Positions 4,049 to 19,293 of a stretch of DNA of 20,375 nucleotides are shown here, piece by piece. A program made the position numbers and the translations under genes. Below the pieces are notes generated by a model that was given only the letters and a program-made list of their open reading frames with translations, had not been told where the DNA came from and made no database searches. The stretch covers positions 1-20,375 of IMG/VR virus record IMGVR_UViG_3300043673_000020; one strand, written 5' to 3'. Positions within the stretch are counted from its first letter, which is position 1. The number at the start of each line of letters is the position of its first letter. Source of the stretch: a virus.

Positions 4049-4534
4049 ATGCCCCTCACCCTGGGCGATATCACCTTCGCCGACTTCGAAATCCCCTCCA
4101 AGCTCAATGCCGCGATCGGCGGCAAGCAGGCGCTGGGCAAGCACAAGCTGCTCGGCGGTGCCCGCGTCACCGACGCGATGGGCGACGATCCGGACGATCC
4201 GGCGTGGGAAGGAAGATTCCGCGGCCCGAACGCATTGGATCGTGCGCAGGCGCTGAATGCGATGAAAGCGGCCGGGCAGGAAGTGCTGCTGACGTTTCTG
4301 TCGATACAATACACGGTCGTGATCGAGGAATTCGTTGCCGACCTGATGCAGGCCTATGAGATTCCCTACCGGATCAGATGCTACATCACGCAGGTCGATA
4401 CTGTTGCGGCATCGCCATCGCTCGATGACAGCGTGAATTCTGATCTGACGTCGCTGACGTCTCAACTAACACAATTCGATGCCAACGCGGCGCAGGCACA
4501 GTCCAATATCGCATCGGGAGCAGCGGGGCTGTGA
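4049..4534 (+). CDS. Post-tape-measure tail/baseplate protein (distal tail or gp43-like)
   Basis: This 161-residue product starts three bases after the tape measure. The N-terminal half reads as a beta-rich tail protein: LGDITFADFEIPSKL, then GGKQALGKHKLLGGAR, then WEGRFRG with an R-x-x-x-L-x-x-M pattern. The next part has strands YTVVIEEF and IPYRIRCYI. This arrangement is common in small proteins between tape measure and hub that bridge tail tube and baseplate, including distal-tail and Mu N-position proteins. The last 35 residues are Ser/Thr/Gln-rich and probably flexible. The exact family is not certain, and the call rests mainly on position and the beta pattern. Confidence 0.55.
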   Translation: MPLTLGDITFADFEIPSKLNAAIGGKQALGKHKLLGGARVTDAMGDDPDDPAWEGRFRGPNALDRAQALNAMKAAGQEVLLTFLSIQYTVVIEEFVADLMQAYEIPYRIRCYITQVDTVAASPSLDDSVNSDLTSLTSQLTQFDANAAQAQSNIASGAAGL

Positions 4535-4546
4535 GGTTTTAAAATT

Positions 4547-4677
4547 TGGTTCAAGCTGCCGCCGCCGATGCTGGCGCAGCGGTGCGATCACCCGGGCAGT
4601 CCTGACTTGGTGAAGCGTCGGCAGTGATGACTGATCGATAAGTGCCGTCGCGGATGCAGTGGTGCGGTGAAACCCAA
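4547..4677 (+). repeat. Structured inverted-repeat element, copy A
   Basis: This element fills the noncoding gap 4535-4678. Conserved blocks in order are TGGTTCAA (4547-4554), CGATCACCCGGGC (4585-4597), TGATCGATA (4632-4640), CAGTGG (4657-4662) and TGAAACCCAA (4668-4677). The same blocks occur with near-identical spacing in copy B read on the minus strand. Possible pairings are TTGG/TTCA with TGAA/CCAA closing the element, GCTGC+GCC (4555-4563) with GGC+GCAGC (4573-4580), CGATCA with TGATCG, and CCG with CGG (4645-4652). The closing strand covers the GGTGA Shine-Dalgarno-like sequence of the next gene. Function unknown. Confidence 0.72.
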
Positions 4678-4678
4678 T

Positions 4679-5026
4679 ATGGCCGTCAACCAATCCACCA
4701 TCTCCGCGCAACTCGCGACCTCGCTCGCTGCGGTGCAAGCCGCGATCTCCGCGGTGCCGGACCTGTCGACCGCGACGCCGTTCGCACTGGCGCCGGTCGC
4801 CGCGGCGGTCGCGGCCGAAATCGCGACGTTGCAGAATGCGGTCGCGCAATTCGACGCGGATATTGTTACGACCAGCGTCGCCGGCGTCACCGCGGGCCAG
4901 CCGGCGCCGACGCAATGGGCGGTGTTGCTGAACCAGGTCAGTGACAGCCAGCAGATCGCGGCATTGCTGAACGCCTTGGGTTATTTACAGAGGTTAGCCA
5001 CCAACCTTGCACAGGCGACGGGATGA
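4679..5026 (+). CDS. Small Ala-rich helical phage protein
   Basis: A 115-residue product rich in Ala, Val and Gln, with predicted long helices (residues about 10-28, SAQLATSLAAVQAAIS, and 45-70, APVAAAVAAEIATLQNAVAQ) and no clear membrane segment because charged and polar residues are spread through. I chose ATG 4679, which has GGTGA eight bases upstream; an in-frame GTG at 4667 would add four residues. Its stop overlaps the next gene as ATGA, so it is translated with the LysM protein. I do not recognise the family. Position suggests a minor tail or baseplate component or assembly factor. Confidence 0.6.
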   Translation: MAVNQSTISAQLATSLAAVQAAISAVPDLSTATPFALAPVAAAVAAEIATLQNAVAQFDADIVTTSVAGVTAGQPAPTQWAVLLNQVSDSQQIAALLNALGYLQRLATNLAQATG

Positions 5027-5226
5027 GCACCATCGCGGGCACTACCATCACGATGGCTGGCGGCAACCTGTTCAAGCTCGCGGCGCAGGCCTATGGCGAC
5101 AGTTCGCAATGGAATCGGATCGCCGCGGCTAATGGGTTGTGGGATTTTCTTGTCGTAGGAACCGTCACACTGGCGATACCGCCGGCGAATGCATCAGCTG
5201 GGAATGGCGGCATTTTGGGGGTTTAG
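5023..5226 (+). CDS. Tail protein X, LysM-like
   Basis: The 67-residue product is almost entirely one LysM-type domain: a first strand (TITMAGGNLFKLAAQAYGDSSQWNRIAAANGL) followed by a strand near VVGTVTLAIP. This fits the short LysM tail proteins (X family) found next to the hub gene in P2-like and related contractile phages, where LysM binds the baseplate hub or peptidoglycan. The ATG overlaps the preceding stop as ATGA. In related phages the hub (D-like) gene normally follows directly; here about 1.3 kb of other genes intervenes. Confidence 0.75.
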   Translation: MSTIAGTTITMAGGNLFKLAAQAYGDSSQWNRIAAANGLWDFLVVGTVTLAIPPANASAGNGGILGV

Positions 5227-5305
5227 GGCGTCTGACGAACTCTGCAAGATCGCGGTCGAGGCGTCGCGGCTGATTTCCGCCAATCTCGCTGCGGGGCAGG
5301 CGTGA
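5204..5305 (+). CDS. Short ORF (33 codons) linking protein X and the following gene
   Basis: The frame runs ATG 5204 to TGA 5303-5305 and reads MAAFWGFRASDELCKIAVEA then SRLISANLAAGQA. The second half is a regular amphipathic helix. The stop overlaps the next ATG at 5305 as TGATG, a coupling typical of real genes. The first 23 bases overlap the end of the LysM gene in another frame, and no strong ribosome binding site is visible. It is otherwise the only coding explanation for 5227-5304. Function unknown. Confidence 0.42.
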   Translation: MAAFWGFRASDELCKIAVEASRLISANLAAGQA

Positions 5306-5886
5306 TGGAAAAGGTCGGTATCGAAATCCCGCGCCTGAACCTCGCAACGGTTCAGGTCTGTTTGATCGGCGATAGTCCGCTGATCTGCCATGCTTGGTCG
5401 CACAAGGCCAAACAGGCGATGCTCGACAAGCAGATGAAGAAAGGCCGGCAAGCGAAAGAAGCAAAGGATCCTAACAAGGATTATCAGGAATCACTTTACA
5501 AGCTTGGCGACGGCTATGGCTTTCCCGCCGTCGCGTTCAAGTCTGCTATGGTCGGGGCCTGCCGGTTCGTTGAAAACATGAAGATGACGGAAGCGCGCGG
5601 TGCGTTCCACATTCTTGGTGAGATGATCCCGATCGAGGGAACGCCGACGCCGCGCGAGGACATGGTTCGTGTCGGCATGGGGACGGCCGATATCCGCTAC
5701 CGCGGCGAGTTCAAGTCGTGGCGCGCGGTGCTGGATATTTCCTACAATCAGGCGGCGATCAGCACAGAGCAGATCGTCAACCTGCTCAATGTCGCAGGTT
5801 TTGGTGTAGGTATCGGCGAGTGGCGGCCGGAGCGTAATGGTTCCTACGGCAGGTTTCACGTGGCAACCGAAGGGGAGGCCACGTAA
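5305..5886 (+). CDS. Conserved phage protein of unknown function (GEWRP-motif protein)
   Basis: The 193-residue product begins with a strand (ATVQVCLIGDSPLICHAWS), then a Lys-rich helix (KQAMLDKQMKKGRQAKEAK). A core follows with GFPAVAFKSAMVGACR, then DIRYRGEFKSWRAVLDISYN, then EQIVNLLNVAGFGVGIGEWR and a Gly-rich end (GSYGRFHV). I recall this pattern as recurrent in tailed phages, usually without an assigned function and paired with a gene like the next one. The Gly-rich C-terminal GVGIGEWRP...GSYGRF has a faint resemblance to RAMP/Cas7-type loops, which I cannot confirm. It is not a recognisable tail protein, so its place between X and the hub gene is odd. ATG 5305 is preferred; GTG 5302 is adjacent. 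Confidence 0.7.
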   Translation: MEKVGIEIPRLNLATVQVCLIGDSPLICHAWSHKAKQAMLDKQMKKGRQAKEAKDPNKDYQESLYKLGDGYGFPAVAFKSAMVGACRFVENMKMTEARGAFHILGEMIPIEGTPTPREDMVRVGMGTADIRYRGEFKSWRAVLDISYNQAAISTEQIVNLLNVAGFGVGIGEWRPERNGSYGRFHVATEGEAT

Positions 5887-6392
5887 TGCGAATTGCAAAA
5901 TACGAATTCGCCGAAGGCGCAAGGCTTCAACCCGGTGCCAAGGCTGATGATGCCGACGCGATCGGCCAACATCTTGAAACGCTCCGGGTCAAGTACAAGG
6001 GCGAGTTGACTCCGGCGGATGTGGTCGCTGATGCCAAAGGACACAACTCTCCGCTTCACTCTTTCTTTGAGTGGAGTGACAGCGAGGCGGCACAACAATA
6101 TCGGCTGCAGCAGGCGCGCGGTTTGATCCGCGCCGTTGTCGCGGTCATCGTGAGTGACGACGCGCCGGCAAAGCGAACGCAGGCGTTCGTTCACATCGCC
6201 GATCCGGGCGCACCGCATTATCGTGCGGTCGATCAAGCGATGTCGTCGGAACGCACGCGAGAAATGGTTCTGCGACAGGCGTTCAAAGAGTTCCGTGCCT
6301 GGCAAAAGCGATACGAACATCTTGAAGAACTGGCCGATCTGTTCAAAGCTGGAACAAATCTGGTCGAAAGGATCCCGCAACTGCGGGATTAA
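5886..6392 (+). CDS. Conserved phage protein of unknown function (partner of the GEWRP protein)
   Basis: This 168-residue protein shares one base with the previous stop (TAATG), so it is translationally coupled to it. It contains LTPADVVADAKGHNSPLHSFFEWSDSEAAQQYRLQQARGLIRAV at about residues 40-80. A strand region (VAVIVSDDAPAKRTQAFVHI) follows, then a long charged C-terminal helix (MVLRQAFKEFRAWQKRYEHLEELADLF). I recall similar FEW-D-S proteins accompanying GEWRP proteins in other phages, with unknown role. The charged helices suggest a nucleic-acid or protein-binding adaptor, which is inference. It does not look like a tail component. Confidence 0.68.
   Translation: MRIAKYEFAEGARLQPGAKADDADAIGQHLETLRVKYKGELTPADVVADAKGHNSPLHSFFEWSDSEAAQQYRLQQARGLIRAVVAVIVSDDAPAKRTQAFVHIADPGAPHYRAVDQAMSSERTREMVLRQAFKEFRAWQKRYEHLEELADLFKAGTNLVERIPQLRD
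6372..6389 (+). terminator. Hairpin at the end of the unknown gene pair
   Basis: ATCCCGC at 6372-6378 pairs with GCGGGAT at 6383-6389 around a 4-nt loop. It overlaps the last codons of the preceding gene and is followed by TAAACC, with no U-tract. It may mark the 3' end of the cassette transcript, stabilise mRNA, or be a side effect of coding. Weak as a terminator. Confidence 0.35.
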
Positions 6393-6395
6393 ACC

Positions 6396-6508
6396 ATGGC
6401 ATGGCGTGGCACGGTAGGTTGTGGCGCGCCGGGGCGTGGTAAGGCAAGGCAGGCAAGGCGGGTCCTGGCTGGTCGAGGCTTGGCATGGCATGGCACGGCA
6501 GGCGCGGC
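6396..6508 (+). repeat. Degenerate pentanucleotide array (NNGGC, 23 units)
   Basis: The stretch between the unknown gene pair and the hub gene splits cleanly into 5-base units such as ATGGC ATGGC GTGGC, AAGGC AAGGC and ATGGC ATGGC ACGGC. There are 21 five-base units and two four-base units (AGGC at positions 12 and 22 of the array). Most units end in GGC. The two ends both carry ATGGC pairs. The strand is strongly G-rich. An ORF runs through it but its protein is low-complexity and it overlaps the hub gene, so I treat the array as noncoding. Confidence 0.78.
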
Positions 6509-6525
6509 TGATATTGGATATTTAA

Positions 6526-7596
6526 ATGTCAGCTACGCTTCGCCAACCGCGCGCCTTCGTGGCGGTCGCGGGCGCCTCGCTGGTGCCGATCGAATGTTCG
6601 GTCGACGTCTCGCTGCATCAGAGCGCCGACACGTTCTATGCCAAGCTGCCGCTCGACAATGATGCCGGGCTCGACGAAGTGTTCTGGGCCGGCACCGCGC
6701 CGATCCCGGTCACCATCAACGCCACCAGCGACCAGCTGATCGGCGGCATGACCGCGTTGCTGGTCGGGCAGGCCGACGAGCCGCTGATCGATTTTGCGCA
6801 GCGCACGGTTTTGATCAAGGGCCGCGACCTGACGGGCGCGCTGACCGATCTAAAGACTTCGGAGAAGTGGCAGAACCTCTCCAACCTGGACATCATCACG
6901 CAACTGGCCGGACGCGCCGGGCTGACGGTGAATTTCGCCGGCACGACCGATCAGGCCGGCTTGCAGTTCGATCAGGACTATACCGAAATCTCCGACCTGG
7001 ATTCCTGCTGGAACGTGATTGTCGCCAGCGCAAAACGTCTGGGCTCCATCGCCTTCGTCAAGGGTAGCGTGCTCTATATCCAGCCATTGGATGCGGCACC
7101 GTCCAGTTTCTTCAAGATCAACTATTCGCGCCCGACACCAAGCCAGATCGCCTCGGGCAGCTTTGTCGGTCTGACCTGCGCGCGCAATCTCAATCTGGCG
7201 AAAGACACCTCGATCGAGCTGCAAAGCTGGCAGCACAAGCAAGGCAAGTCCGTCACCTCGAAATTCCGCAGCAAGGGCAAGCATACCGGATCGAACCCGT
7301 CGATCTATCAGTTCCGCGCCGCCAACCTGTCGAAAGAACAACAGGACCGCATCGCCAAGAGCCATCTCAAGGAAACGCTGTCTCACGAGCGCCAGATACG
7401 CCTGACCAATCATCCCGGCGACGTCACGGTCAATCCGGCCACCATGGGCGTGTCATTGACGGGAACGGGGACCGATTTCGATCAGGACTACATCCTGTCC
7501 AACGTGATCCATCGGTTTTCGCGCGAAGGCTATGTGATGGACCTGTCGGCGCATTCGCAGGATGCCAGCCGCGGCGAGCCGGAACAGCAGCAGTGA
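6526..7596 (+). CDS. Baseplate hub / late control D-like tail protein
   Basis: The 356-residue product resembles the gpD/Mu gp44/T4 gp27 hub family, which forms the ring linking tail tube to central spike. The N-terminal part (residues 1-110) holds beta strands with AFVAVAGASLVPIECSVDVS and VLIKGRDLTGALTDLK. A middle region has LDIITQLAGRAGLTVNF and DLDSCWNVIVASAKRLG, a typical hub element where a helix precedes a strand with GSVLYIQPL. The C-terminal part includes LSHERQIRLTNHPGDVTVNP and the final strand pair. Gene order (protein X, then D, V, W, J, I) supports the call. GGAT lies seven bases before the ATG. The stop overlaps the next gene as TGATG. Confidence 0.78.
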   Translation: MSATLRQPRAFVAVAGASLVPIECSVDVSLHQSADTFYAKLPLDNDAGLDEVFWAGTAPIPVTINATSDQLIGGMTALLVGQADEPLIDFAQRTVLIKGRDLTGALTDLKTSEKWQNLSNLDIITQLAGRAGLTVNFAGTTDQAGLQFDQDYTEISDLDSCWNVIVASAKRLGSIAFVKGSVLYIQPLDAAPSSFFKINYSRPTPSQIASGSFVGLTCARNLNLAKDTSIELQSWQHKQGKSVTSKFRSKGKHTGSNPSIYQFRAANLSKEQQDRIAKSHLKETLSHERQIRLTNHPGDVTVNPATMGVSLTGTGTDFDQDYILSNVIHRFSREGYVMDLSAHSQDASRGEPEQQQ

Positions 7597-8138
7597 TGGA
7601 AAGTTTTCGCAACTTCATCCATCTCGAGGTGCAGCGCTTCCTCGATCGGCGGACCCGCAAGATGCCGTGCATCGTCACGGGATACCGCGGCGACCTGCAT
7701 GCGGTGAAAGTCGAATTGCAGCCGACCGGAACGCTGTCGGGCTGGATCCAGGTCGAAACCGACCAGGTGGGCAATCTGGTGGCGCCGAACATCGGCGACC
7801 CCGGCTGGCTCGACTTTCACGAGGACGACCGCCGCGCCGCGGTATTCGTCGGATCGAACCACAACGATCTGTTTCCGCCGCCGCAAGCGATCAATGCCGG
7901 CGAGCGGCTGATCAAGACCTCGTTCGGATCGATGTTCTATTTCAAGAACGACGGCTCGATCACATCGACCGACAAGGCCGGGACCGTGATCGCCTCCGAC
8001 GGCACCGGCAACGCCACGGTGACCGCAACGACTGCAGTGACCGTGCACGCACCAGCGATCAATCTCGGCAATGGCGGTGCGCTGCAGCCGGTGCTGCTCG
8101 CGAACAGCCAGCCCAGCACGGTTTTGAAGGCGCAATGA
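7596..8138 (+). CDS. Baseplate assembly / central spike protein V
   Basis: A 180-residue spike protein. Residues about 20-95 form an OB-fold-like region (MPCIVTGYRGDLHAVKVELQ, GWIQV, GDPGWLDF, RAAVFVG), matching the N-terminal domain of gpV-type spikes that docks on the hub. The rest is a short beta-helix with repeating polar strands (FYFKNDGSITSTDKAG, then TVTATTAVTVHAP). The tip lacks an obvious HxH iron-binding motif. I use ATG 7596, which overlaps the hub stop as TGATG; GTG 7593 is in frame just before it. It lies upstream of the W/gp25-like gene, as expected. Confidence 0.8.
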   Translation: MESFRNFIHLEVQRFLDRRTRKMPCIVTGYRGDLHAVKVELQPTGTLSGWIQVETDQVGNLVAPNIGDPGWLDFHEDDRRAAVFVGSNHNDLFPPPQAINAGERLIKTSFGSMFYFKNDGSITSTDKAGTVIASDGTGNATVTATTAVTVHAPAINLGNGGALQPVLLANSQPSTVLKAQ

Positions 8139-8139
8139 A

Positions 8140-8517
8140 TTGGGCCAAGATCTCGCACATTGGTTTGGTCAGGACCTCAACGTCGCGGCCTCCGGCGATC
8201 TCTTGACCGTCGACGGCACCGTGAAGGGCCAGCAGCGGGTGCTGCGGCGGCTGTTGACCAATCCCGGCGATTACATCTGGCATCCGACCTATGGCGCCGG
8301 ACTGGCCTCGAAAATCGGGCAACCGTTCGATGCCGCAGCCTGTGCGGCCTTGATCAAAGCGCAAATCTTTCTGGAACCTTCCGTGGCGCGCGATCCGGTG
8401 CCGGTGATCGGCGTCACGCAGATCACCAACGGGCTGTTCGTGTCGATCGCCTATAGCGACGCGCAGTCAGGTTCGCCGGTTTCACTGTCGTTCGACGTCA
8501 CGCCGCCGGGAAGTTGA
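8140..8517 (+). CDS. Baseplate wedge protein W (gp25-like)
   Basis: The 125-residue product matches the gpW/T4 gp25 family that forms the wedge core and links baseplate to sheath. Visible hallmarks are an early DLNVAASGDLLTVDGTVKG, then QQRVLRRLLTNPGDYIWHPTYGAGL (the conserved L-L-x-x-P-G-x-x-x-x-x-P-x-Y-G-x-G pattern), then a helix and a final strand with SFDV. The only in-frame start that preserves this N-terminus is TTG 8140; GAAGG sits nine bases upstream, and an ATG at 8135 is out of frame. A rare TTG start two bases after the spike stop suggests coupled, reduced translation. Confidence 0.82.
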   Translation: MGQDLAHWFGQDLNVAASGDLLTVDGTVKGQQRVLRRLLTNPGDYIWHPTYGAGLASKIGQPFDAAACAALIKAQIFLEPSVARDPVPVIGVTQITNGLFVSIAYSDAQSGSPVSLSFDVTPPGS

Positions 8518-8521
8518 CAGC

Positions 8522-9739
8522 ATGGCCTCGTTGAACACCCAAAGCTTCACCACGGGGCTGCAGAACTTCGTCGCGGCGGCGCAGGGCACCTGCAAGACGC
8601 TTTTGGACTTCACGGTCGGCTCGATCCTGCTGGCCGTGGCCGAGGCGACGCAGGGTGTCGTGCTGTGGCTGCAGGGCCTGATCCTGCAACTGCTCGCGAC
8701 CACGCGGCTGGCGACCTCCAAGGGCAACGACGTCGATACGTTTTGCGTCGATTTCATGCCGGCATTGCCGGGCAGCGTCACCGCCGTACTCCCCAACGGC
8801 TCGCCGCGGCTGCCGGCGGTGTCGTCGACTGGATCTGTCACCTTCGCGCGCTTCACGCCGACCAATGCGGCGTTCATTCCGGCCTCGATTACACCAGGCG
8901 ATGGCCTCGGCGCGGTGATCCAAACGCTGGACGGCACGCAGACTTTCAACGTGGTCGCGGACACCACGCAGCCGCTGTATTCGACCGCGCTGGGCGGCTA
9001 CACCATCCCGGCCGGGCAGGGCAGTGGCGCGGCGAAGGTCAAGGCGGTCAACGGCGGGACCGGCGGCAATATCTCCGCGGGGACGCTGAGCGTGCTGCAG
9101 ACCGGGTTGTCCGGGGTCGATACCGTCACCAACGCGGCGCCCTATACCAATGGAATCAACCAGGAGAGCGATCCGGCGCTGAAGGCGCGGTTTGTCGCCT
9201 TCATGAATTCGCTGTCGGAAGGCACCTTGGGTGCATTCGCCTTTGCGATCACCTCATTGCAGCAGGGCCTGCAATACAAGCTGATCGAAAACGTCGATTA
9301 CAATGGTTCAACCGACAACGGCATGGTGACCGTGATCATCGACGACGGTTCCGGCACCACGCCGACCGCGACGGTCAATCTGGTCGCCAACGCCATCATC
9401 TCGGTGCGCGCGGCGGGGATTCGCTCCGGCGTGTTCGCGGCGACGAAATTGGCCGCCAACGTGGTGATGACGATCGGCGTCGCGCAGGGCTTTGTGCCGG
9501 CGATGGTGCAGCTGCAGGCGATCGCGGCGGTCACGACCGCGATCAACGGCGTCGGGATGGGCGATCCGCTGGGGGCCGGACCGACGCTGGATTTCATGCT
9601 TTTGGGGCAGGCGGCGTTCAACGTGCCGGGGGTTTCTAGCGTGACCGGGGTTTTGCTCAACAGCGGCACCGCCGATCTGACCGGGACCAAGTTGCAAACG
9701 ATCAAGGCGGGTACGCTGACCGTCAATCTGGCGAGCTGA
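8522..9739 (+). CDS. Baseplate J-like protein
   Basis: The 405-residue protein matches the baseplate_J/gp47 family. The N-terminal 60 residues carry LLDFTVGSILLAVAEATQGVVLWLQ, a family hallmark. The central part has beta-rich repeats, including VKAVNGGTGGNISAGTLSVLQ. Around residues 210-250 comes the family's ESDPALKARFVAFMNSLSEGTLGAFAFAI. The C-terminal domain has MVTVIIDDGSG and a final Asn/Thr-rich strand region. Baseplate J assembles with W and I to form the wedges around the hub. The start ATG lies four bases after the W stop. The length is normal for the family. Confidence 0.85.
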   Translation: MASLNTQSFTTGLQNFVAAAQGTCKTLLDFTVGSILLAVAEATQGVVLWLQGLILQLLATTRLATSKGNDVDTFCVDFMPALPGSVTAVLPNGSPRLPAVSSTGSVTFARFTPTNAAFIPASITPGDGLGAVIQTLDGTQTFNVVADTTQPLYSTALGGYTIPAGQGSGAAKVKAVNGGTGGNISAGTLSVLQTGLSGVDTVTNAAPYTNGINQESDPALKARFVAFMNSLSEGTLGAFAFAITSLQQGLQYKLIENVDYNGSTDNGMVTVIIDDGSGTTPTATVNLVANAIISVRAAGIRSGVFAATKLAANVVMTIGVAQGFVPAMVQLQAIAAVTTAINGVGMGDPLGAGPTLDFMLLGQAAFNVPGVSSVTGVLLNSGTADLTGTKLQTIKAGTLTVNLAS

Positions 9740-9740
9740 G

Positions 9741-10538
9741 ATGGCAACCGGGGATATTCCTGATCTCGTTTATCGCTTGCGCGCCAACACGCCGCCGTGG
9801 TTTCCCAATCAGGGCGCGGCGCCGGTCGTCGATGGTGTGCTGACGGGCATCGCGACGCTTTTGAGTTATGTCTATCAACTGATTCAGTACGCGCGGGCGC
9901 AGTCGCGGATCCGCACGTCCTCCGGCGGCTGGATCGACCTGATCGCGTGGGATTATCTGGGATCTCGCTTCACGCGGATGCCCGGCGAGAGCGATAATGC
10001 ATTCCTGGCGCGGCTGTTGCCGGAGCTGGTGCGGCGGCGCGTGACGCGCGCGGCCATCCAGCAGGCGGTGCAGCAACTGACGGGGTTTCCGGTTCGGGTG
10101 ATCGAGCCGGAACAGTTGACCGATGTCGGCTTCTGGAAAATGCGGGGATCTTCGCCGGCTCCAGTTTCGTTCTACCGGGTCGACACCATGCCCAATCCGG
10201 CGCGCTGGTCGAGCCGCGGGCTGCGCTGCATGTTCTTTATCGAATGCGTGCTGCCGCTGACATCATCGTTCGGCAACAATCCGATGCCGTCCTACGGCGA
10301 ATATACCGCGACGTTGTTTCTGCGCGGCACGTCAGGCGCCAAATCCGGCACCTCGGCCCAGATCAGCCGCGGCGATTTCGCCTCCTCAGGCGGCGCGCAA
10401 GCGGTCTACAGCCTGATCAATGCGATGCGTGCGGCGGGCATCACCTGCTGGGTCAAGTTCGTGCCGGTGCCCACGGCCGCGCTCTGGGATCAGCCCGGCG
10501 TGACCTGGGATCAGCCCGGCGTCGCCTGGGACCGTTAA
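9741..10538 (+). CDS. Baseplate/tail protein I-like (Mu gp48-like)
   Basis: A 265-residue protein located directly after J, where P2 and Mu encode protein I/gp48 that links wedges to tail fibres. Residues 1-110 are helical (GVLTGIATLLSYVYQLIQYARAQ then IRTSSGGWIDLIAWDYLG), which fits gp48-type proteins whose N-terminal helix bundle packs on J. Residues 110-130 contain RRVTRAAIQQAVQQLTGFPV. The C-terminus ends with two and a part 7-residue repeats (WDQPGVT, WDQPGVA, WD), encoded by 21-base direct repeats at 10485-10526. The start ATG overlaps the preceding stop context by one base gap. Confidence 0.72.
   Translation: MATGDIPDLVYRLRANTPPWFPNQGAAPVVDGVLTGIATLLSYVYQLIQYARAQSRIRTSSGGWIDLIAWDYLGSRFTRMPGESDNAFLARLLPELVRRRVTRAAIQQAVQQLTGFPVRVIEPEQLTDVGFWKMRGSSPAPVSFYRVDTMPNPARWSSRGLRCMFFIECVLPLTSSFGNNPMPSYGEYTATLFLRGTSGAKSGTSAQISRGDFASSGGAQAVYSLINAMRAAGITCWVKFVPVPTAALWDQPGVTWDQPGVAWDR
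10485..10532 (+). repeat. 21-bp tandem repeat at the end of the I-like gene
   Basis: Units start at 10485, 10506 and (partial) 10527, each beginning TGGGATCAGCCCGGCGT or TGGGAC. They encode a Trp-Asp-Gln-Pro-Gly-Val heptad repeat at the protein's C-terminus. Copy number could vary by slippage. Confidence 0.75.
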
Positions 10539-10601
10539 CCGCCTCTTTCATCCGACGCGCATCACGCCGCTTTGCCGCGGTCTCTTTGGCTTGGGGTTTC
10601 C

Positions 10602-12554
10602 ATGGTGAACCGTTCGATCGTTTACGATCAAGAACAACTCGATCCGTTCGATGTGCTGTGGCAGTACAAGGATTTTCTCGCCGCGATCGGCGCGCTTGAG
10701 CTCGATCTGTCCGGGCAGATCACCACGCTGGTCACGGGCTTCGCGCCGACCCCGACCGGACCGGCGTCGCTGTCGATCAACCTCACGGCGGGCCGCATCT
10801 ACCAGCAATCGGTGATGGATTCGAGCGCCTACGGCGCGCTGGCGTCGGATGCCTCGATCGTGCAGCAGCAGGGTTTTGCGCCGGCGCAATCCTTGACGCT
10901 GTCGACCGCGGGGCTGTCGTCCGGGCAGTCGATGTGGGCGCTGGTGCAGGCGCAATTTTCGCAAGTCGACGTGATCCGGACCGGCGATCCGACCGGGGGC
11001 GTGCTCAATTACTGGAACGTCAACAATCCGGCGCAGCCGTTCCAGGGCCCGAACAACAACGGCTCGTCGCAGCCGACCGAACGCAAGGCGACAGTCGCCA
11101 TTCAGGTGATCTACGGCTCGCCAGCTTCAACAGGCTCCGAAGTGCCGCCCAATCCCACCAATGGCTGGGTGCCGCTGTTCCTGGTCGACCTGGCGTTTGC
11201 CCAGACCACCATCACGTCGGGGCAGATTCTGGTCGCGGGGCCGAGCGTCGGCTCGAACGTGCCCAGCAATTATCCGGGTGCGCCGTTCCTCGCGGGCCTT
11301 CTGAATCAGCATCACAAGGGCACGGCCGGGCAGGCGCCGCAGATCGATCTCACCGCGGAAGTGAAGAACCTGCTGCCGCTATTGAACCTGCCGGCGTCGT
11401 CGACCTCGGGCGGCGGCATCGGCGTGGTCAAACTGCATGCCGGCAATCCGAACGGCAATGTCGCGGGCAATTTCAACGTCAACGGTGCGTCGGATTTTTG
11501 CATCGATACCACGGGGCAGTTGTTGTATTTCTGCTCGGTGACCGGCACAGCATCGACCGCGGTGTGGACCTCGGTATCCGGTGCGACCACCTCGATCTTT
11601 GCCGGTGGCACCGCAACCGGCTCGGTCAATGCGCAGGTCATCGCGAGTACGACGCCATCGGGCTTCACCAAATCGACCGGGCAGGTCGTCACCGGGACCG
11701 GTATTAACAACACTGGGTCGACAACGCTCAATGTCGACGGCACTGGTACCTCAACGGTGCAGAAAAACACCGGTTCCGGCAACGTCAATCTGACCGGCGG
11801 TGAGATGAACGGTTTCTTCACCGTTGTCTGGACCGGTTCGATCTATCTGTTGCAGCCGGGCCTGCTGGGCCAGTTGGCGACGATGAATCTCGGCCAATGG
11901 GTCAAGAACGACGGCAGCGGCAATCTCACGGTCAACGTCGATGCCAGTTTGCAGGATAATGGCGGCGGCAAGCTGCAGGTGACGCCGAGCGGGTTGCCGC
12001 CGAGCGGTGCGCTGATGCCCTATTCGGGATCGTCGGCACCGTCCGGCTGGCTATTGTGTCAAGGTCAGGCAGTTTCCCGCACCACCTTTGCAACCCTGTT
12101 CGGTGTCACCAGCATCACCTATGGCTCCGGCGACGGCGTCACCACCTTCAACCTGCCTGATTTGCGCGGCCGCGTCGTGGCTGGCGTCGATGGCGGTGTC
12201 AACCGGCTCACGACCAACACGATGTCGTCGCAAGCGCTCGGAGGTATCGGAGGCCTCGAACTTGAGACTTTGAACGTCGGACAATTGCCGACGAACATCG
12301 CGTCGAATGGGAACAACACGATCGTTGTTGATGGCGTAAATATTGTCACCACAACGAACGGGGCTGCATCGGTTGCCAATTGGTCGAACGGCAGTGGCAC
12401 AACGCTAACCGCATTCCAGCCAAATCAGGCGACTGCCGGGACTGTTTCGTCGTCCAGAACCCAGAACGTCGGTGTTACCTCCACCAATACTTCCGGCGGC
12501 GGACATCCGAACGTCCAGCCGACCATGGAACTCAATTACCTCATCAAGACGTAA
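10602..12554 (+). CDS. Tail fibre protein with phage tail collar domain
   Basis: A 650-residue fibre following the I-like gene. Residues 1-90 include an N-terminal attachment-like region (YDQEQLDPFDVLWQYKDFLA). The shaft is Gly/Thr/Asn-rich and beta-prone. A collar domain lies at about residues 464-535: SGALMPYSGSSAPSGWLLC, then SRTTFATLFGVTS, then FNLPDLRGRVVAG, which is the classic G-x-x-x-P-Y-x-G...P-x-G-W...F-x-x-L...P-D-L-R-G-R-V pattern. The remaining 110 residues are beta-rich and Thr/Asn-rich, presumably a receptor-binding tip. I chose ATG 10602; an in-frame TTG at 10572 would add ten residues but has no better upstream signal. Confidence 0.82.
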   Translation: MVNRSIVYDQEQLDPFDVLWQYKDFLAAIGALELDLSGQITTLVTGFAPTPTGPASLSINLTAGRIYQQSVMDSSAYGALASDASIVQQQGFAPAQSLTLSTAGLSSGQSMWALVQAQFSQVDVIRTGDPTGGVLNYWNVNNPAQPFQGPNNNGSSQPTERKATVAIQVIYGSPASTGSEVPPNPTNGWVPLFLVDLAFAQTTITSGQILVAGPSVGSNVPSNYPGAPFLAGLLNQHHKGTAGQAPQIDLTAEVKNLLPLLNLPASSTSGGGIGVVKLHAGNPNGNVAGNFNVNGASDFCIDTTGQLLYFCSVTGTASTAVWTSVSGATTSIFAGGTATGSVNAQVIASTTPSGFTKSTGQVVTGTGINNTGSTTLNVDGTGTSTVQKNTGSGNVNLTGGEMNGFFTVVWTGSIYLLQPGLLGQLATMNLGQWVKNDGSGNLTVNVDASLQDNGGGKLQVTPSGLPPSGALMPYSGSSAPSGWLLCQGQAVSRTTFATLFGVTSITYGSGDGVTTFNLPDLRGRVVAGVDGGVNRLTTNTMSSQALGGIGGLELETLNVGQLPTNIASNGNNTIVVDGVNIVTTTNGAASVANWSNGSGTTLTAFQPNQATAGTVSSSRTQNVGVTSTNTSGGGHPNVQPTMELNYLIKT

Positions 12555-12563
12555 GGCCACATC

Positions 12564-13100
12564 ATGACGCTGAAAATCCAATTGTCGCACATCAAAGCGC
12601 TGCCGTTCGATTTCGAGACGGCGGTCGCCGACTTCATCGCCGCCAAAAAACGCCATCAGACGACCGAGGGCGAGCCCGCGCCGTCCGCGCCGCATCAGAT
12701 GGTCGAAGCTGCCGTGAAGCGCATCCCGGGCTCGATCGATCCGCCGCGCGCTGACGAGTTCGTGGCCGATTACGAGATCGTCGACGATACCCCGCCGCCG
12801 CCGTCGCTTGAGGCGCGAAAGTCCGCGCTGGCGATGCAGGCGCAAACCGCTGCGCAAGGAGCCATCAACAAATTGCGGCCGCCGTTGAAATCCCGCCTGC
12901 TGGCGATCGAGTTCAGTCGCGCGATGGCGATCGAGGAAGCCAAGCGCGCGCCATCGGAAAGGGCGACGATCGCGGGCTATCTCGACGGCAATGTGCGCGT
13001 TGAGGCGATCACCTATCACCTCGCGAAAATCGAGGCATCGATTCACGATCTGACCGACGCGACCATCGACGATTTCGACGCGCCGCCGTTTCCGAACTGA
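12564..13100 (+). CDS. Hypothetical protein downstream of the tail fibre (possible fibre assembly factor)
   Basis: A 178-residue soluble protein. The N-terminal half has ITS-like strands (LKIQLSHIKALPFDFETAVADF) and a Pro-rich linker (DDTPPPPSLEARK). The C-terminal half is helical and charged (LKSRLLAIEFSRAMAIEEAKRA). I do not recognise the family. Fibre genes are often followed by a dedicated chaperone, so a fibre assembly role is plausible from position only. It starts ten bases after the fibre stop. Confidence 0.6.
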   Translation: MTLKIQLSHIKALPFDFETAVADFIAAKKRHQTTEGEPAPSAPHQMVEAAVKRIPGSIDPPRADEFVADYEIVDDTPPPPSLEARKSALAMQAQTAAQGAINKLRPPLKSRLLAIEFSRAMAIEEAKRAPSERATIAGYLDGNVRVEAITYHLAKIEASIHDLTDATIDDFDAPPFPN

Positions 13101-13106
13101 TTTCGC

Positions 13107-13235
13107 TTTGGTTCAAGCGGCCACTGACGTTGCTGCAACACCTATCGATCACCCTGGCACTTCGGGCGTTGCAGAAAATACGAAAGCCCGGGTGATCGAA
13201 GATTCCACCAGCGCGCACAGTGGTGGATTGAACCA
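13107..13235 (-). repeat. Structured inverted-repeat element, copy B (inverted relative to A)
   Basis: Read on the minus strand from 13235 to 13107, blocks are TGGTTCAA, CGATCACCCGGGC (13198-13186), CAGGGTGATCGATAGGT (13156-13140), CAGTGG and CTTGAACCAAA. Stems visible on the + strand are TGGTTCAA (13109-13116) with TTGAACCA (13228-13235), CCACTG (13121-13126) with CAGTGG (13218-13223), CGATCACCC (13146-13154) with GGGTGATCG (13190-13198), and a local hairpin TCCACCA (13204-13210)/TGGTGGA (13221-13227). CAGTGG and TGGTGGA overlap, so the last two alternatives exclude each other. It fills most of the 176-base gap before the second fibre gene, which otherwise holds nothing recognisable. Confidence 0.78.
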
Positions 13236-13276
13236 GCCCTAACCCTTTCGACATGCCTCGCACTGGAAATCCGTTC

Positions 13277-17991: not shown

Positions 17992-18474
17992 ATGGCCAAA
18001 ATCACGCTGCGCTTTGTCGAGGGACAAGGCCTCGAATCTGACGCGATCGAGATCCGGGAAGGCACCTGCATGCCGATCGTCCCGAGCCACGTTGAATGCG
18101 TCGATCCGGATACCGGCAAGTACATCGGCCAGCACGCCGACGGCATGATGGCCCGGGATCCGGGCTATGACGCGCCGTTCAAGGCCGAGTGCTTTGTCGA
18201 ATTGCCGTGCAACGACGAGCAGGCCAAGGCGTTCTATGACGCCGCGCGCGCCTCGATCGGCGAGTCCTATGATTGGAAAGCCATCCTCGGGTATGTGCTG
18301 CCGGGACATTTCCACCAGAAATTCCACGCGATCTGCTCGGCGAAAATGACGCTGCTGCTGCGCGACAAGGCCAACTGGTTTCCCAGCAAAGCACCGCTGG
18401 CGGTGCCGTTTCACTGCATGGATCCGCGCGACCTGCTGCTGATCCTGTCCACCCACGTCAAAATCGATCATTGA
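17992..18474 (+). CDS. Permuted NlpC/P60-like (YiiX-type) protein
   Basis: A 160-residue protein starting at ATG 17992, four bases after the previous stop, with AGGG before it. It has the order of permuted papain-like proteins: an early His (H33 in VPSHVECV), then D-x-x-T-G-K-Y-I-G, a helix with QAKAFYDAARASIGE, the characteristic YDWKAILGYVL, and a late Cys (C115 in HAICSAKM). In typical members the late motif reads C-S-E. Here it is C-S-A, so the hydrolase activity is not assured. These domains act on peptide or amide bonds in cell walls or lipids. In this lysis cluster a wall-modifying role is possible; the call is from motif order, not a search. Confidence 0.58.
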   Translation: MAKITLRFVEGQGLESDAIEIREGTCMPIVPSHVECVDPDTGKYIGQHADGMMARDPGYDAPFKAECFVELPCNDEQAKAFYDAARASIGESYDWKAILGYVLPGHFHQKFHAICSAKMTLLLRDKANWFPSKAPLAVPFHCMDPRDLLLILSTHVKIDH

Positions 18475-18491: not shown

Positions 18492-18719
18492 ATGAAGGGC
18501 ATCGATCCAAAATATATTATGTATCTCGGTCTCTTGGTCACGATCGAGCAGGCGATCGGTCACGGCACTATATCGTTGACCAATATCGTTCCGCCGACCA
18601 TCGCGCCCTATGTCGAGAGCTGGTGCAACCTTCTGGCGTTCATCGGCACCACCATCATGACCGGTCAGGCCGCTATTTCATCCAGCAATCCGGGGCCGCT
18701 GATTACGCCGCCGAAATAA
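18492..18719 (+). CDS. Holin-like small membrane protein
   Basis: A 75-residue protein with two hydrophobic segments, residues about 8-28 (YIMYLGLLVTIEQAIGHG) and 44-64 (WCNLLAFIGTTIMTGQAAI), and a polar C-terminal tail. Size, two membrane passes and position after an endolysin fit a class II-type holin, which would let the endolysin reach the wall. ATG 18492 has GGAAGG nine bases upstream. No charge-rich dual start is visible. The call is by context and hydropathy. Confidence 0.58.
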   Translation: MKGIDPKYIMYLGLLVTIEQAIGHGTISLTNIVPPTIAPYVESWCNLLAFIGTTIMTGQAAISSSNPGPLITPPK

Positions 18720-18720
18720 G

Positions 18721-18769
18721 GGCTGGTTCACCGCGCCAGCCAGCCCGCGTCGGCTGTCATCGGTCACCC
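18721..18769 (+). repeat. Left half of a third structured element (copy C)
   Basis: GGGCTGGTTCA (18720-18730) is identical to the 5' end of copy B read on its own strand, and CGGTCACCC (18761-18769) follows after 30 bases, the same spacing as copies A and B (31 and 30). A hairpin CAGCC (18741-18745)/GGCTG (18752-18756) occupies the same place as the first hairpin of A and B. The expected right half does not follow; it is found 470 bases later. Confidence 0.65.
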
Positions 18770-19000
18770 CGCAGTGCCGATGCCTCGCCATATTTTACTT
18801 TTGCGGCCGCTCCCAATTTCACCCATCGACCCGGCGGCTTCTCCGTTGTGTCCGGCTCTCGGCGTTTGCGAGTAGCGAGCGATGGCGCGAACAACGGTGT
18901 AGGGGACGAAGCTGCGTGGTGAAAGCTGAAGGCTTCCTTCGCGGTCGCAAATCAAATCCGCGCCGGACGGAATCCGGCATTCGAAAACAGGAGAGCCAAG
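18770..19000 (+). promoter_or_regulatory. Leader region before the Acb2/Tad1-like gene
   Basis: This stretch has no convincing gene (short ORFs only). It contains two compact hairpins: CTCG with CGAG inside a GCT/AGC clamp near 18855-18876, and GCCGGA (18962-18967) with TCCGGC (18973-18978) around CGGAA, just before the AGGAG ribosome binding site. No sigma70 promoter stands out to the eye. The hairpins may regulate or protect the leader of the downstream gene. Confidence 0.35.
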
Positions 19001-19228
19001 ATGGCTTCTGTCGAGAGCACTTCGGACGAGCGCACGGTGAACAATACCATGCGCCACGCCTATCGCGTCCTCAGCGATGCCGAGAAGGCCAACATGCAGG
19101 CGATCAAGGATGAGGGATTGAAGTTTCACGATCTCGTTTCCGGCATGGGCAACAGTCGCGAACTCGCGCTTGCCAAAACCAAGATTGAAGAAGCCGTCAT
19201 GTGGGCTGTGAAGCACATCACGGCTTAA
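19001..19228 (+). CDS. Acb2/Tad1-like cyclic nucleotide sponge (predicted anti-CBASS/anti-Thoeris)
   Basis: A 75-residue all-helical protein matching the small phage proteins known as Acb2/Tad1-type (NCBI 'Acb2/Tad1 domain'). Key pieces are HAYRVLSDAEKANMQAIKDE at residues 19-38 and SRELALAKTKIEEAVMWAVK at 52-71, the family's conserved helical hairpin. Tyr21 and Lys36 have the same 15-residue spacing as the ligand-binding Tyr11 and Lys26 I recall for Acb2. Acb2 and Tad1 bind signalling nucleotides (cyclic di- and trinucleotides, gcADPR) and so block CBASS or Thoeris effectors. It has its own strong ribosome binding site (AGGAGAG) and lies between the two halves of the structured element. Substrate is not predictable here. 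Confidence 0.75.
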   Translation: MASVESTSDERTVNNTMRHAYRVLSDAEKANMQAIKDEGLKFHDLVSGMGNSRELALAKTKIEEAVMWAVKHITA

Positions 19229-19242
19229 GCATCATCCGCTGA

Positions 19243-19293
19243 CAGGGTGATCGATAGGTAGCCCAGCAACCAAGCTGGCTACTTGAAACCAAA
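19243..19293 (+). repeat. Right half of a third structured element (copy D)
   Basis: CAGGGTGATCGATAGGT (19243-19259) is identical over 17 bases to copy B, then 23 bases with shared CAGCAAC and TGG, then TTGAAACCAAA (19283-19293). The hairpin GTAGCC (19258-19263)/GGCTAC (19277-19282) takes the place of the last hairpin in A and B. GGGTGATCG (19245-19253) can pair with CGGTCACCC of the left half, and TGAAACCA with TGGTTCA. T-rich sequence follows, so it could also end transcription of the Acb2-like gene. Confidence 0.72.

Follow-up and report, generated by a model that had tools for sequence, protein, structure and literature searches.

The 20,375-base phage sequence analyzed here (the window) carries three copies, designated A, B and C, of a unit made of two inverted arms, and related arms recur at unrelated loci across five phage contigs, both at gene junctions and within genes, and with different cargo at one and the same locus in different phages. 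We consider it probable that the three copies represent a phage-borne family of small mobile DNA units that are non-autonomous, and MITE-like and cassette-like in character; that these units move is inferred from sequence comparison.

The window encodes tail, baseplate (Baseplate_J, tail collar), endolysin-like and holin-like genes, almost all on the + strand, as called with a simple custom model that was also applied to the other carrier contigs. The nearest relatives found for its baseplate gene, at about 40% identity, were three metagenomic phage contigs, one Komagataeibacter phage and two Rhizobiales genomes. Copy A (4547-4674, + strand) consists of a left arm at 4547-4597 and a right arm at 4632-4674, scoring 33.6 and 14.8 bits against the arm profile, with TGGTTCAA at 4547, CGATCACCCGGGC at 4585-4597 and TGATCGATAAGTG from 4632. 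Copy B (13109-13235, + strand) has its arms at 13109-13158 and 13186-13235 (43.0 and 39.5 bits), and its - strand reads TGGTTCAA at 13235, CGATCACCCGGGC at 13198-13186 and TGATCGATAGGTG from 13151. Both are empty inverted pairs, with no transposase gene inside. The preliminary description had reported these two copies with the same blocks and spacings; they are indeed present, and stand far above chance, the maximum reached anywhere in reversed contigs being 10.3 bits; there, the arm profiles returned no arm of at least 14 bits.

Within each of the two copies, the second half is related to the first in inverted form, and a BLAST comparison within the window already matched the left arm of A to the + strand of the left part of B (E 5.5e-5). 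We therefore take the unit to be the arm of about 50 bp, with A and B as inverted pairs of it. The two copies had also been placed in opposite orientations, which was taken as an argument for mobility. Since each copy is quasi-palindromic, the shared blocks match either way and orientation cannot be read from them, so that argument was an artefact. Arm similarity instead favours the same orientation for A and B: the left arm of A scores 49 against the left arm of B versus at most 43 (outside the best four) against the right arm.

A suspected split copy proved to be real. Copy C spans about 567 bp (18724-19290), with a left arm at 18724-18771 (+ strand, 20.2 bits) that begins 4 nt past the stop codon of the holin-like gene, and a right arm at 19241-19290 (- strand, 32.7 bits); the BLAST comparison within the window likewise matched one arm of B to 19240-19293. 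The approximately 460 bp between the arms hold a gene (19001-19228, + strand) for a 75-aa Acb2/Tad1 hairpin-domain protein (Pfam PF24729, E 1.5e-19), located between the holin-like gene and an outer-membrane beta-barrel-like gene. Judged by its family, that of the cyclic-nucleotide sponges, the product is probably an anti-CBASS/Thoeris sponge. The arm as the unit, the bracketing of genes by arm pairs and the acb2-family gene within the split copy all go beyond the preliminary description.

The building block can be written as TGGTTCAA-N29/30-CGATCACC, and is laid out as an outer purine tract, T-G-(G/A/T)-T-T-C-A (conserved outer block TGRTTCA), a variable and often hairpin-prone middle, and then CGATCACC. 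Since the outer flank of the arms is purine-rich (0.73 versus 0.50 in the background), the unit probably reaches some 10 bp further out, and its ends are approximate. Across the carrier set, made up of five metagenome-derived virus records in IMG/VR (the window and the phage contigs G001, G002, G003 and G004), the profile of the first arm type identified 28-29 arms of at least 14 bits, with a top score of 43. A second arm type (TGATTCAGCGCGGCACTG...GAGAAGTCAGGC; 12 copies of at least 14 bits) surfaced when inverted partners of the first were sought, and the two types together account for about 40 arms. Both types were defined on the contigs that they describe, such that their bit scores are not an independent test of the family, a role that falls to the reversed-sequence control and to inverted pairing. 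Inverted partners of the window arms, sought within 2.5 kb, were found at E values of 6e-5 to 7e-14, and 16-17 inverted pairs spanning 113-999 bp were identified overall. Eight of these are empty and measure 113-128 bp, namely A and B in the window, G002 7932-8056, G003 31072-31195, 48954-49066 and 50793-50905, and G004 1628-1754 and 18526-18653; each of the remaining pairs (257-999 bp) is loaded with one ORF or protein segment. Three loci of G003 carry nearly the same right arm (scores 86-98), pointing to recent copying, and part of the distribution reflects descent, since most of the five metagenomic carriers share genes.

The preliminary description had called for a search for copies beyond A and B, and it was in IMG/VR that these were found. 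A first, degenerate pattern scan returned 74 loci, for the most part chance matches, with the arm present in G002 and G003 and weakly in G001; a stricter two-arm pattern then added G004. All 13 matches of a second viral pattern scan, whose gap range excluded the known copies, were due to chance, and named phages and plasmids gave no true arm match. On inspection, the same was true of all 46 matches of the canonical two-arm pattern in GTDB (84,980 species), a scan sensitive to close relatives and not to diverged ones, since the pattern fits about one copy in each carrier phage. Pattern searches covering 397 genomes from the order and 149 from a single family produced chance-like single matches only, and a sequence-only arm model gave two noise-level matches in 397 Rhizobiales genomes, a weak test in that scoring was limited to 14 candidates per genome.

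Comparison with related phages suggests that these units have arrived at several of their sites by insertion. Copy A divides a tail gene into an N-terminal part (4049-4534, + strand, 161 aa), which can be aligned to the N-terminal region of the single genes found in L194, L195 and the Komagataeibacter phage phiKX1, and a C-terminal part (4679-5026, + strand, 115 aa) in the same frame, which carries the GYL...NL-type C-terminal end of these single-gene relatives. The gene is undivided in all three relatives, and is followed by a homologue of the window gene 5023-5226 in L194 and L195 and by a gene of equal size in phiKX1. The C-terminal part is alanine-rich, and gene order and the GYL...NL motif are therefore the main grounds for a gene split by A. 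Elsewhere in this tail module, two genes with no Pfam match (5305-6392) lie between genes 5023-5226 and 6559-7596, whose homologues are nearly adjacent in L194 and L195; no arms were found around these two genes.

Similar comparisons could be made at other loci. The empty pair at G003 50793-50905 separates homologues of the window genes 17992-18474 and 18492-18719, which are only 17 bp apart in the window; an arm at G004 38988-39037 separates two genes with a 1-bp overlap between their G001 homologues; and an arm at G002 29-81 comes after a gene that has a homologue in G004 overlapping the next gene there. Moreover, the subtype of copy B recurs in-frame within a D12-class DNA methyltransferase gene of G002 and G003, where the position of the arms is identical between the two, so that they count as one event. 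The left arm of B is closest to the left arm in the G003 methyltransferase gene and its right arm to the right arm in that of G002, in which (L112:14059-16818) the in-frame arms enclose an apparent second copy of the enzyme's own N-terminal domain. The relatives that provide the unoccupied sites are diverged, and loss in a relative could thus also account for individual cases; taken together, the comparisons would be more simply read as insertion than as repeated loss. The proposal of a mobile, MITE-like element is thereby strengthened, through copies in other phages, a split gene, unoccupied equivalent sites and the occurrence of one subtype at unrelated sites. Target-site duplications were not found, the mean longest match between flanks being 3.35 as compared to 4.09 at random sites.

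The cargo differs between phages at two loci. At the holin-like/outer-membrane-protein position that copy C occupies in the window, G004 carries a cassette encoding a 118-aa protein that matches the Acb2/Tad1 family less strongly (E 4e-5, just under the Pfam cut-off); its left arm is related to that of copy C and its right arm is of a different type. At the second locus (G002 18608-18929 and G003 28550-28885), homologous neighbours flank arm pairs that enclose different small ORFs. Other loaded pairs include G003 43948-44946, whose product resembles DHH/DHHA1-type proteins (DHH phosphoesterases; matches just under the Pfam cut-offs), and G003 36459-37133, with an ORF of 223 aa that runs from within one arm to within the other. 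We also noted that GCGCCGGACGGAATCCGGCA, located just upstream of the acb2-family gene (window 18960-18979), recurs as GCGCCGGACGGTTTCCGGCA before the Tad1-like gene of G004, possibly as a common hairpin in the cassette leader. Separately, G002 encodes a NusG-like protein (L113:4185-4805), possibly a phage antitermination factor, next to a shared HTH (replication-type) gene, and a NusG match occurs in one more of the scanned proteins.

Cargo exchange of this kind could also arise if the arms were conserved linkers at module edges that never transpose, with proteins of the ERF/YqaJ type swapping the intervening DNA during co-infection. Such proteins do occur in the carrier phages, the differing cargo at a shared locus in two phage pairs is in line with swapping, and so is the lack of a target duplication. 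Homologous swapping nevertheless leaves unexplained how arms first arrived at unrelated sites, how A came to split a gene and how units came to lie in-frame in the methyltransferase, and there is considerable divergence between many of the arms that belong to different cassettes. We therefore regard recombination between linkers as a rather unlikely account of the family as a whole.

Folding and coding analyses bear on what the arms themselves might do. The preliminary description had considered the copies a selected structured RNA of about 130 nt, closing into a cloverleaf or a bistable stem, with covarying hairpins. Copy B does fold far better than its shuffles (z -5.7 with DNA parameters, -4.9 with RNA parameters), and so do three other short copies (-4.6, -3.7 and -2.6, DNA parameters), yet A (-0.8) and the 113-bp copies (-0.1 and -0.3) fold unremarkably. 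In a consensus fold of the eight short copies (RNAalifold), the covariation term was only -0.05 kcal/mol and a kept double change was seen in 1 of 16 pairs, such that the covarying hairpins were not borne out and no common fold emerged. Nor were arms more complementary to their own partners than to others (p 0.085 for the whole arm, 0.41 for the middle), and an Rfam search of the window gave only chance-level matches, located elsewhere than A and B. Hairpins within the arm middles are mildly more common than in dinucleotide shuffles (z -2.5). With extreme folding confined to some copies, and neither covariation nor own-partner complementarity, a structured RNA is largely refuted, and we consider it very improbable as the basis of the family.

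A conserved coding peptide was also considered, as the arms often read M/L-V/I-Q...PIDHPG. It is disfavoured by the differences between arms at the three codon positions (0.31/0.36/0.40), which show a weak third-position excess, and by GATCACC, which is kept across a frame shift; with so weak an excess, tolerance of the peptide is more likely than selection for it. Across copy B, for example, runs an ORF of 44 codons with a TTG start (13108-13242, + strand; LVQAATDVAATPIDHPGTSGVAENTKARVIEDSTSAHSGGLNQP), which is probably incidental, and its LVQAATDVAATPIDHPGTSGVAENTKARVIEDSTSAHSGGLNQP peptide matches that of the in-frame copies in the G003 and G002 methyltransferases.

A regulatory role was considered as well. 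Left arms lie mostly 4-18 nt past a stop codon, as might be expected if they served as operators or as signals in the transcript, with a phage NusG-like or sigma-like factor as one candidate; the inverted pairing would then reflect a dimeric binder or transcript hairpins. This stop-codon spacing, together with the NusG-like and weakly sigma-like proteins encoded by carrier phages, lends the idea some weight, and the purine-rich outer flank is in line with it. Regulatory sites would not, however, be expected in-frame within coding sequence or dividing a gene as A does, at both ends of a gene, or missing from the equivalent junctions of relatives, and neither covariation nor a common fold was seen; we consider this role improbable.

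In the favoured reading of mobile units, two inverted arms form either an empty palindrome of 113-128 bp, as in A and B, or a one-ORF cassette, as in C with acb2. Such units may insert when their ends are recognised by a recombinase or transposase acting in trans, or when they are annealed by phage recombination proteins. Empty units would then spread in a MITE-like manner and loaded ones would carry accessory genes, anti-defence genes among them, from phage to phage. Because insertion is mostly just past stop codons or in protein linkers, peptides encoded by the arms would be tolerated by-products, much as in Rickettsia palindromic elements. A partial scan of about 70 proteins of the window and carriers revealed no transposase of the DDE or Y1 type, and did reveal a tyrosine integrase as well as ERF and YqaJ recombination proteins. 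With low confidence, we suggest that a single-strand-type enzyme or annealing would fit the missing target duplication and the hairpin-prone ends. A more specialised, and doubtful, possibility is a phage-specific gene-cassette system, in which hairpin-prone arm pairs are recognised, perhaps as single strands, by a phage or host recombinase that would insert empty arms as docking sites and load or exchange single accessory genes behind stop codons at fixed loci.

Several known systems share features with this family. Rickettsia palindromic elements (RPEs) are palindromes of about 100-150 bp that occur between genes as well as in-frame in protein genes unrelated to one another, and that encode a conserved peptide (PMC10969869). 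The empty pairs fall within this size range, and units lie in-frame within the methyltransferase ORF of G003 and G002 and at the ends of other ORFs; unlike RPEs, they are carried by phages and not by a bacterial chromosome, and their arms bracket whole genes (257-999 bp), the likeness being drawn from the published description of RPEs. As in MITEs, the units are short, have terminal inverted repeats, lack an internal transposase, are present in many copies and lie both between and within genes, whereas the missing target-site duplication, the lack of a cognate IS among our findings and the long, variable arms set them apart. In mobile insertion cassettes (MICs), such as MIC231 of the Bacillus cereus group, ends matching those of an IS flank a passenger gene, and empty versions coexist. 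The term mobile insertion cassette appears in passages of PMC5444012 and PMC6542083. The phage units likewise have the same ends flanking a passenger gene in place of a transposase, alongside empty versions, but no IS with these ends was found and the cargo consists of phage accessory genes.

Resemblance to REP/BIME sequences lies in short, hairpin-prone units that are frequently arranged as inverted pairs; in contrast to these, a GTAG-type foot was not recognised and the paired units enclose whole genes, and a partial scan of carrier proteins found no RAYT (Y1 family). Integron attC sites are single 3' sites with GTTRRRY/RYYYAAC cores. Integron cassettes also combine a single ORF with partly palindromic ends of variable sequence, yet the present units consist of two inverted arms bearing TGGTTCAA, and no integrase of the integron type was identified; attC membership was rejected on the core mismatch, the conserved outer block being TGRTTCA, in which GTTCAA does not fit GTTRRRY. 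By analogy, the family would work like MITEs and MICs, with in-frame copies resembling RPEs by description; given that neither a cognate IS nor a target duplication was seen, and that the comparison with RPEs is one of description, this likeness does not establish membership in any of the three. We found no phage cassettes of this kind described in the open-access literature.

The entry and exit of single accessory genes (morons, anti-defence genes) in phage genomes is largely unexplained, and the paired arms offer a concrete, testable module for it, with the same ends seen empty, within genes and around anti-defence genes. The in-frame copies extend to phages a type of palindromic selfish DNA known mainly from Rickettsia. 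If the units did constitute a cassette system, they would represent an integron-like or MIC-like route of moron traffic, anti-CBASS/Thoeris sponges included.
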